A stretch of 45,156 nucleotides of DNA from positions 1-45,156 of IMG/VR virus record IMGVR_UViG_3300043313_000951, one strand, 5' to 3'. This stretch comes from a virus. The notes beneath the pieces were generated by a model. The model did no database searches. It was not told the DNA's origin and was given only the letters and a program-made list of their open reading frames with translations. Both the position numbers and the translations under genes were made by a program. This document shows, in pieces, positions 40,688 through 43,068 of the stretch. How positions within the stretch are numbered: the stretch's first letter is position 1; each line of letters begins with the position of its first letter.

Positions 40688-42079
40688 TCAATCGTCGTCG
40701 TTGTCGTCGTCGTCTTCGTCCGGCTTGGTTGCACTCAGATCGTAAAAAGTGATCGACCGCGCATCGAAGGCGACACGCACCTTGCCCGGCGGTCCGTTGC
40801 GTTGCTTGGCGACAATGAGCTCAGCGACGCCCTTGTCGCGATCGGGGGTTTTGCCCTTGAGGTAATACTCGGGCCGGTAGAGAAAGATCACATCGTCGGC
40901 GTCTTGCTCGATGCCGCCCGACTCGCGAAGGTCCGACAGCATGGGGCGCTTGTTCGGGCGCTTCTCGACTTCGCGGTTCAACTGCGAGAGATCTACAACG
41001 GCGCAATCGAGCTCTTTCGACAGCGCCTTGAGCCCAGCGGTGATCTCCGAAAGCTGCTCGTCGCGGCTTACGTTGCGACCACGCGGCGCGCGCATGAGCT
41101 GGAGATAATCGACGACGACAGCGCCGAGCCGGCGACCCGTCTTCGCTTCGACGAGCCGCGCCTTCGAGCGCATTTGGGCGAGCGTCGCCGACGGCGTCTC
41201 ATCGATCCAGATCGGCAGGTCTTTGATCTCGCCCTGAGCGCGCAAGAGCAGCGCCCGCTCCTGATCTTTCAGCCAACCGTTGAGCGCGCAATACGTGCTT
41301 ACCCCCGCGCGCGAGCTCGCCATGCGGATAGCCAATTGCCAACGCGGCATCTCGAGCGAGAAGATCAGAACGGTTTCGCCGCACCCCGCGACACTGAGCG
41401 CGATGCCCGTGACGATCGCCGTCTTGCCCATGCCCGGCCGGCCGGCGAACGCGGTGACGCGGCCGCGGCCGAGGCCCGCTATCTTCTCGTCGAGCCTCGT
41501 GAGCCCCGTCGGTAGCTCGACCTGGCCGTCGCGCGACTCGGCGGCGAGCATGCGATGGTAAGCCTCGGTCGAGACGACGGACATCGGCGCGACCTCGACG
41601 CGCTCATCGCGTTGCGCAAGCTCGAACACCTGCCGCTCTGAAGCGTCGAGGTAGTCTTGCGCGCCGTCGGCCGTCACGATGTAGCCCTCGGCGGCGATCT
41701 TCTGCGCGGTCGCGATCATGTCGCGCGCTCGAGCGAGGCTGACGATCCGGTCGGCGAGCTCTTCGACGTTGCCGAGCGCGGCCTGGAAGCAAAGGTCGTT
41801 GAGGTAGGCGACGCCGCCGACCTGAGCCAAGCGCCCCTCGTCGCGCAGCCAATTGCCAACAGACAGATAGTCGACGGTGCGCCCGCTCTTCGAGAGCTCG
41901 GCGACAGCTTCGAAGATCCGTCGATGCCCTTCCGCGTAGAAGTGTCGCGGCTCGAGCCGGCTCGCGACGAGGGCGAGGTTTGCCGGCACTTCGATCACCG
42001 CGGCGATCAGGTGCGACTCGCTCGCGAGATCGTGGGGCGGCACTCGTGAGGCTCGTTCCACCGCCGCGAGCGCTGTCAT
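40688..42079 (-). CDS. Replicative DNA helicase, DnaB family
   Basis: A 463-residue helicase. N-terminal domain (about 15-150: PPHDLASESHLIAAVIEVPANLALV, RRIFEAVAELSKSGRTVDYLSVGNWLRD) and RecA-type motor with Walker A GRPGMGKT (213-220), then DnaB motifs: EMPRWQLAIRMASSRAGV, VVVDYLQLMRAP (motif near 320-331), LNREVEKRPNKRPMLSDLRESGGIEQDADDVIFLYRPEYY (370-410) with the arginine finger region. It unwinds DNA at the fork. Start overlaps the initiator stop (ATGA), so the two are made together. Confidence 0.92.
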   Translation of the reverse strand: MTALAAVERASRVPPHDLASESHLIAAVIEVPANLALVASRLEPRHFYAEGHRRIFEAVAELSKSGRTVDYLSVGNWLRDEGRLAQVGGVAYLNDLCFQAALGNVEELADRIVSLARARDMIATAQKIAAEGYIVTADGAQDYLDASERQVFELAQRDERVEVAPMSVVSTEAYHRMLAAESRDGQVELPTGLTRLDEKIAGLGRGRVTAFAGRPGMGKTAIVTGIALSVAGCGETVLIFSLEMPRWQLAIRMASSRAGVSTYCALNGWLKDQERALLLRAQGEIKDLPIWIDETPSATLAQMRSKARLVEAKTGRRLGAVVVDYLQLMRAPRGRNVSRDEQLSEITAGLKALSKELDCAVVDLSQLNREVEKRPNKRPMLSDLRESGGIEQDADDVIFLYRPEYYLKGKTPDRDKGVAELIVAKQRNGPPGKVRVAFDARSITFYDLSATKPDEDDDDNDDD

Positions 42080-43068
42080 GATTTAGCCCCGATCGACTTG
42101 AGGTTTCGCTCGAGCTCGGCGGAGATGCGTGCACGGTCGGCGCGCGCGGCCTTGCTCTTCGCTTGCGCTTCGTCGAGCAGCCGGTGCCGTTGCGTGATCT
42201 GCTCGGGCGTCAGCGCGCCGTTGGTTGGCTCATGCTCGTCGTCGTCGTTGTCATCGGTGGCGAGCTGCTCGGCGGGCGGGGCGTTGCCGTACTGATTCCA
42301 ATCGGTCTCGAACGTGCGCGTCGGATGGCGATTGCGAACGAGCCACGGCTTATCGTTCGCGAAGTACTGCTCGAGCTTGAGACGCAAGACAGCCTCAGCG
42401 CGATCGCCGTGCTCGAGCGCGAGAGCGCCGACGCGTTGCAGGGTGCGATCGTCCCCCTTCGGTCCGGAGTCGACGGTGCGCTGAAACGGCTCGCCGTACC
42501 TCGCTGCCCAAAGCTCACGCCAGACACGCCACGCGAGGTCATAGCCAGACTCGGGCTGGACGGGCTGTCCGGTGTCCAGCTCAGCACGGCTAGGCACAGC
42601 ACGGCACAGCACAGAGTGACTGCTTGTGACCGGATGTGACTTCTGGTCACGCGACTCCGGAATATCGGACGGTGCTGTCACGCTTTGGGACGCCGCTGTC
42701 ACGCCGAGTGACTTTGCCCGTGCGAGGTCACGAGCCCGCTCGCGTTCCGTCCGCTTGCGAGCCTTGTCGCTCTGGTTGGCTTCCTGAGCCTCGACGAAGT
42801 TCGGGATCACGAGCAGTCGGAGGTCCTCGCGGTAGACGACCATCCCGTCCTCGAGCAGCTTCCCGAGGGGCGCCTCGACCTCCTCCCAAGGGGCGCGGAC
42901 GGCGACGGCGACGGCGCGAAGGCCGAGCTTGCCGAGCTCGAGAATGCCGGCCCGGTCGACCTCGCGAAGTAGCAGCCCCATCAGCCCGCGAGCCTGCCAA
43001 GGGAGCACGCACCACTCCGGAGTGTTGCGCGTGTAGAAGCGCACGTAGCGCTCGTCCTGCCATCTCAT
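42076..43068 (-). CDS. Replication initiator with DnaD-like layout
   Basis: A 330-residue protein. N-terminal winged-helix domain (about 10-95: MLPWQARGLMGLLLREVDRAGILELGKLGLRAVAVAVRAPWEEVEAPLGKLLEDGMVVY) binds DNA; a basic and disordered linker (100-175, DKARKRTERERARD then Ser/Pro/Thr-rich) follows; the C-terminal part (175-250) has the LAWRVWRELWAARYGEPFQRT and HGDRAEAVLRLKLEQYFANDKPW segments of helicase-recruiting regions. It sits before DnaB. The linker is where the repeat cluster of the candidate origin lies. Confidence 0.75.
   Translation of the reverse strand: MRWQDERYVRFYTRNTPEWCVLPWQARGLMGLLLREVDRAGILELGKLGLRAVAVAVRAPWEEVEAPLGKLLEDGMVVYREDLRLLVIPNFVEAQEANQSDKARKRTERERARDLARAKSLGVTAASQSVTAPSDIPESRDQKSHPVTSSHSVLCRAVPSRAELDTGQPVQPESGYDLAWRVWRELWAARYGEPFQRTVDSGPKGDDRTLQRVGALALEHGDRAEAVLRLKLEQYFANDKPWLVRNRHPTRTFETDWNQYGNAPPAEQLATDDNDDDEHEPTNGALTPEQITQRHRLLDEAQAKSKAARADRARISAELERNLKSIGAKS
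42593..42731. other. ori: Candidate replication origin: phased GTGAC iterons inside the initiator gene
   Basis: GTGAC occurs at 42616, 42626, 42636 and 42708, and its complement GTCAC at 42646, 42677, 42698 and 42727. Start-to-start gaps are 10, 10, 10, 31, 21, 10 and 19 bases, close to whole turns of the helix, so the copies face the same side. Two direct 10-base repeats GGCACAGCAC (42593-42612) lie just before the first, continuing the 10-bp phase, and a nearly palindromic CCGGAATATCGG lies at 42657-42668. The region codes for the low-complexity linker of the initiator, as the lambda origin does in gene O. Function not shown here. Confidence 0.65.

Follow-up and report, generated by a model that had tools for sequence, protein, structure and literature searches.

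Helically phased GTSAC boxes inside a phage initiator gene as the proposed initiator-binding part of its replication origin

Eight GTSAC boxes, where S stands for G or C, form an array at positions 42616–42731, on the minus strand, of the virus record IMGVR_UViG_3300043313_000951, whose 45,156 nucleotides were analysed in full and are referred to here as the window. We consider it very likely that this array is the initiator-binding part of the phage's replication origin, located inside the phage's own initiator gene. No experiment has been performed, and binding, melting and origin activity are inferred. What is established from the sequence is the array itself, its phase and polarity, its conservation at the DNA level, an accompanying tract with 5-bp periodicity, the gene order, and the exchange of gene modules. 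The origin reading is the best supported one because the boxes are conserved as DNA, are found in the majority of the members of the family, recur in unrelated initiator families, and sit at the iteron position of lambda-type origins. A candidate origin inside the initiator gene had already been proposed in a sequence-only reading of the window, and that proposal is supported as the best reading, without experimental proof.

On the plus strand, GTGAC occurs at 42616, 42626, 42636 and 42708 and GTCAC at 42646, 42677, 42698 and 42727, with successive gaps of 10, 10, 10, 31, 21, 10 and 19 within a span of 116 bp. The eight starts are strongly phased, with a resultant length R = 0.96 at a best period of 10.2 bp, which was matched by none of 20,000 random placements. 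Across the window as a whole the motif is merely slightly enriched and gives no window-wide signal, as the 123 copies found compare with 102 ± 9 in shuffled sequences. The next densest stretch, at 322, holds 4 copies in 112 bp, and in 300 windows simulated with the dinucleotide composition of this one no 116-bp span held more than 5 copies, compared to the 8 observed. The array occupies codons 113–151, in the linker, of the 330-aa initiator ORF. The sequence-only reading had listed these eight starts and seven gaps, which held exactly, and its description of the spacing as near multiples of 10–10.5 bp and its placement of the cluster in the linker codons (about 113–159) held as well. The genome-wide count of GTGAC and the clustering check that it proposed were carried out, and the array is unique in the window.

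The initiator ORF (42076–43068, minus strand) was identified by a PHROG profile match to phrog_1408, a family of replication initiation proteins (E 3.1e-5, residues 3–153). The match covers the N-terminal half of the protein and leaves its C-domain outside, the family entry describes no origin, and the modest E value of the match counts against the origin reading. A Pfam scan of the window initiator yielded nothing useful and no match to PF04492, tblastn against cultured phages yielded no match, scans of genome collections yielded no relative, and a sequence search of solved structures found no convincing relative. The N-terminal domain (residues 1–97; codons at 42778–43068, minus strand) is predicted to adopt a winged-helix-like fold (mean pLDDT 86), and fold searches returned weak winged-helix-type matches and nothing stronger. 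A basic helix is predicted at residues 101–117 (DKARKRTERERARDLAR; codons at 42718–42768, minus strand) and is our proposed box-reading element; the outermost box, at 42727–42731, overlaps its codons. Directly downstream of the initiator gene, and overlapping its end by 4 bases, is a gene for a DnaB-type replicative helicase (40688–42079, minus strand; PF03796, 1.7e-81).

A close relative, L002, has the N-domain and the linker in common with the window, whereas the C-domain and the helicase have diverged. Within the linker, 38 of 40 box bases are identical compared with 45 of 82 spacer bases (p = 2.8e-6 by Fisher's exact test). Each of the two genes contains eight boxes, 7 of the 8 box columns are retained in L002, and in one common column the orientation is flipped (GTGAC vs GTCAC). 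Lambdoid O genes are known to be mosaic, and the pattern seen here, with the C-part and the helicase swapped while the N-part and the boxes stay constant, is similar to theirs.

To assemble the family, ten N-domains were aligned, leaving out the array region proper, and a search with this alignment led to 64 loci and 55 non-redundant genes. At least three GTSAC are present in the linker in 50 of these 55 initiators. The 55 genes contain 407 boxes compared with 182.6 ± 8.0 in a synonymous-codon null (maximum 202 over 300 redraws). The distribution of box gaps has its peak at exactly 10 bp (217), followed by 21, 20 and 11 bp; the box starts are spread across the three codon positions (176, 130 and 100); and the codons TCA for Ser, TGT for Cys, CGT for Arg and GGT for Gly are enriched in the linkers, as the boxes demand. 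The excess over the synonymous null, the use of all three frames, and the enrichment of the box-required codons together indicate selection at the DNA level, and the recurring VTxxHxxSRxVT linker is thus interpreted as the protein shadow of the boxes. The linker of L168, a member of F1, has no GTSAC and contains repeated GACAC/GTGTC instead, with the helix RQKEKR. In the initiators of four loci (L161, L180, L182 and L102) an extra domain separates the basic helix from the array, and at least one member of the set matches T5orf172/MUG113.

A tract with a strict 5-bp period (42576–42615, minus strand) keeps register with the boxes along the coding strand; we propose it as the opening or loading region, with melting being inferred. 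Starting from the last box, the coding strand reads GTCAC/TCTGT/GCTGT/GCCGT/GCTGT/GCCTA/GCCGT/GCTGA/GCTGG. Two tandem GGCACAGCAC units noticed in the sequence-only reading are real (42593–42612) and in phase, and they are part of this longer tract. In the initiator family the lag-5 identity of the tract is 0.495 compared to 0.370 ± 0.010 in the synonymous null, and the lag-3 identity is below the null. The tract follows the last box directly, as in GTCAC TCCTA GCCTA GCCGT GCCTA; of 49 arrays, 44 end with a box that reads GTCAC on the coding strand. Other pentamers are found in the same place and register in other families, GAGAA in F3 and CAGTA in F4; the F2 initiators do not follow the 5-bp rule.

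Base composition gives no support for an origin, either as GC skew or as A+T content. No A+T-rich stretch was found near the array, where the local minimum is 56% GC, and 50-bp windows across the 5-bp tract have 62–70% GC. No DnaA box (TTWTNCACA, with at most one mismatch) was detected between 34.6 and 45.1 kb. The sequence-only reading had predicted a change of GC skew near 42650, and this prediction failed, as there is none and the cumulative skew peaks near 34–35 kb. The skew in this window seems tied to gene direction and is uninformative.

A scan of IMG/VR for four GTSAC at a 10-bp pitch returned at least 120 stretches, and 93 of 120 matches were inside ORFs of at least 130 aa. Together, 59 scan proteins (the non-redundant set plus those of the window and L002) match many initiator, O-like, DnaD-like, replisome-organizer and primosomal PHROGs. 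Control motifs gave 26 stretches for GASTC-N5, 118 for TGSCA-N5 (10 bp), and at least 120 for GTSAC-N7 (12 bp). The raw count of phased GTSAC was dropped as an argument after these controls, as the TGSCA and 12-bp GTSAC counts are in the same range. The location of the arrays, unlike the raw counts, separates GTSAC from the controls. A match to an initiator PHROG was found for 1 of 31 TGSCA control ORFs (among the families shown), the 12-bp GTSAC matches are mostly tetrapeptide repeats in a single frame, and the stretches of both controls are mostly in tetrapeptide-repeat genes or outside longer ORFs. The GTSAC code marks the initiator genes of several unrelated phage families. Separately, 10-bp GTSAC arrays were seen outside initiators, near genes for the terminase large subunit or portal (L029, L048, L054, L058, L092, L099 and L112), and could possibly be packaging-site boxes. 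In E. coli phages and prophages, initiators of the F2 type (L291:2655-2966, from phage Tritos, also L045 and L053) carry two GTSAC arrays, one in the N-domain codons (about residues 43–65) and one in the linker.

An origin inside the initiator gene is an already known kind of arrangement. The lambdoid origin consists of iterons and an A+T tract in the middle of the O gene (PMC7466680). The proposed origin in the window is like those of lambda, phi80 and Stx phages in its position between the codons for the N- and C-domains of the initiator and in the succession of repeated boxes and opening tract in the coding direction (PMC7466680), and the initiator genes are alike in the exchange of N-part and C-part modules. 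The proposed origin is lambda-like in layout, yet a distinct variant. The iterons of lambda are 18-bp dyads about 20 bp apart, whereas the window has 5-bp boxes of mixed orientation at a 10-bp pitch, and the remark in the sequence-only reading that such a short phased unit is unlike long iterons held in this comparison. The opening tract is A+T-rich in lambda and the one proposed in the window is G+C-rich and 5-bp-periodic, the gene after the initiator is P in lambda and a DnaB helicase in the window, and lambda O belongs to Phage_rep_O while the N-domain of the window initiator does not.

A closer connection to lambda is provided by the 12-bp GTSAC matches, which include 26 loci of one family (L325, L336 and 24 others). 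Two of these loci were scanned and match Phage_rep_O (PF04492, E about 1e-35). In the Phage_rep_O loci, GTCAC-N7-GTGAC dyads are situated at the iteron position of lambda and abut lambda's A+T-rich tract, which reads GGGACACACAAAAGACACTATTACAAAAGAAAAAAG in these loci and GGGGGACACAAAAGACACTATTACAAAAGAAAAAAG in lambda; GTSAC therefore fills the iteron slot of a functionally known origin type. These lambda-O-type prophages have the half-site GTCAC/GTGAC and the slot in the initiator gene in common with the window. They differ in having GTCAC-N7-GTGAC ahead of lambda's own A+T tract and a Phage_rep_O initiator, neither of which is present in the window.

Bacterial oriC also combines duplex-binding boxes with a short repeat that leads into the opening site (PMC10797057). 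The layout of DnaA boxes and DnaA-trio is similar to that proposed here, except that the DnaA-trio unit is 3 bp and that of the window is 5 bp, without DnaA boxes and inside a coding region. The Rac gene ydaU of E. coli K-12 (L213:6120-6977) was tried as a possible known origin and rejected, as it contains no GTSAC; its linker has repeated TGTTCAA-like words, a candidate for the box of the DUF1376 group. Other boxes fill the same slot in two further phages. It contains GTCCGC/GCGGAC at 11–12 bp followed by AAGAG repeats in Salmonella phage SPN1S (L216:1363-2178), whereas in Escherichia phage TL-2011b (L215:1519-2343) it contains GTWAC spaced about 12 bp apart, with AGAGGAAGAGG after it.

The second initiator family, F3, with 54 non-redundant genes, provides information about how the box may be read. 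By box class, 31 of these genes have GTCAC, 19 have NAACGCC in 10-bp arrays, and 4 are mixed. The NAACGCC arrays are in the same place as the GTCAC arrays, ahead of the same GAGAA tract, and in a tree of residues 1–100 the box class changes at least 7 times. Residues K112 and Q115 of the basic helix switch with the box in all 6 of 6 independent pairs (p = 0.031 by the sign test), compared with 0–1 of the six pairs for N-domain columns 32, 72, 30 and 40. The columns from 118 onward are confounded because the boxes begin there. AlphaFold models predict the basic helix in both families (residues 101–117 and 108–121), the motif R.[RKQ]..R.[RK] is found ahead of 31 of 54 arrays compared to 2.6 in shuffled sequence, and Met at the K112 position accompanies GTWAC boxes in two families (L167 and L251). 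From the co-variation and the predicted structure we infer that the basic helix just before the array probably reads the box, a notion for which there are no binding data. Since the helix and the array are adjacent, their joint switching may also mean only that they were transferred together on a single piece of DNA, with no functional connection between them. Common ancestry of the F1 and F3 N-domains was not shown (hhalign probability 46%). The initial reading of the window did not recognise the 5-bp tract as a further element in register with the boxes, and it missed both the basic helix whose residues change along with the box and the wide spread of the GTSAC code.

We propose that initiator protomers would bind the GTSAC boxes one per helical turn, all from the same side of the double helix, and would build up a regular nucleoprotein array. 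The basic helix (residues 101–117), held by the winged-helix-like N-domain, would read the box. The array would run toward the 5-bp tract, usually ending in a coding-strand GTCAC; by analogy with lambda, the strands would open in the in-register tract and the C-domain of the initiator would pass the DNA on to the helicase, the product of the following gene. The initiator C-domains of the relatives are DnaT-like or DnaD-like. A bolder reading, which we hold to be less likely than not, is that this is an origin grammar common to many unrelated phage initiators. A short basic helix, roughly similar to the basic region of bZIP proteins, would read one pentamer per turn (GTSAC, or NAACGCC, GTWAC or GACAC with altered helix residues), and the protein array would continue in register into a 5-bp tract. 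With each protomer spanning one or two of its steps, this tract would act as a ruler, defined by its sequence, for opening and loading; it would be comparable with the DnaA-trio without being the same element.

The pattern could in principle be a by-product of a protein-level repeat, that is, of a preference of the linker for VT, SH and CH residues. The linkers are indeed of low complexity and these residue pairs are recurrent. However, successive copies of a 10-bp repeat fall in different reading frames, the boxes occupy all three (176/130/100), their number is more than 20 sd above the synonymous null, and the lag-3 identity of the tract is under the null, which leaves this explanation all but excluded. 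The boxes could also be operator sites for early transcription control by the initiator or another regulator, with no origin involved. Phased arrays can serve any oligomeric DNA-binding protein, and other contigs contain some GTSAC arrays that lie between genes, in the vicinity of those for terminase or portal. We consider this explanation very unlikely, as the array is in mid-gene between initiator domains, both in the window family and in F3, and is followed by a tract placed like the melting region of lambda, and the same boxes occupy the iteron slot in lambda-O-type genes.

A different possibility retains the proposed origin and assigns box reading to the winged-helix N-domain, with the basic helix hitchhiking with the array. 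The helix and the array are about 20 codons apart and exchangeable as one segment, and the N-terminal part of lambda O is known to bind the iterons. Against this, none of the tested N-domain columns follows the box class across the switches while the helix residues do so in 6 of 6 cases, unrelated N-domains have both the helix motif (31/54 vs 2.6 shuffled) and the box in common, and in two families with GTWAC boxes (L167, L251) the helix has Met at the K112 position. This alternative remains possible.

In the literature that we searched, largely without subscription journals and hence without a claim of priority, we found no 10-bp pentamer code, no spread of such a code over initiator families, no in-register 5-bp tract and no joint switching of helix and box. 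For most temperate and metagenomic phages the origin is not known. If the origin reading is true, origins could be called from sequence alone in many phage families, by the phased pentamers of the initiator linker and a 5-bp tract in the same register, and the odd VTxxHxxSRxVT linkers of phage initiators would be explained as a DNA constraint. The joint switching of helix and box supplies residues and base pairs with which to test directly how the specificity of an initiator changes.
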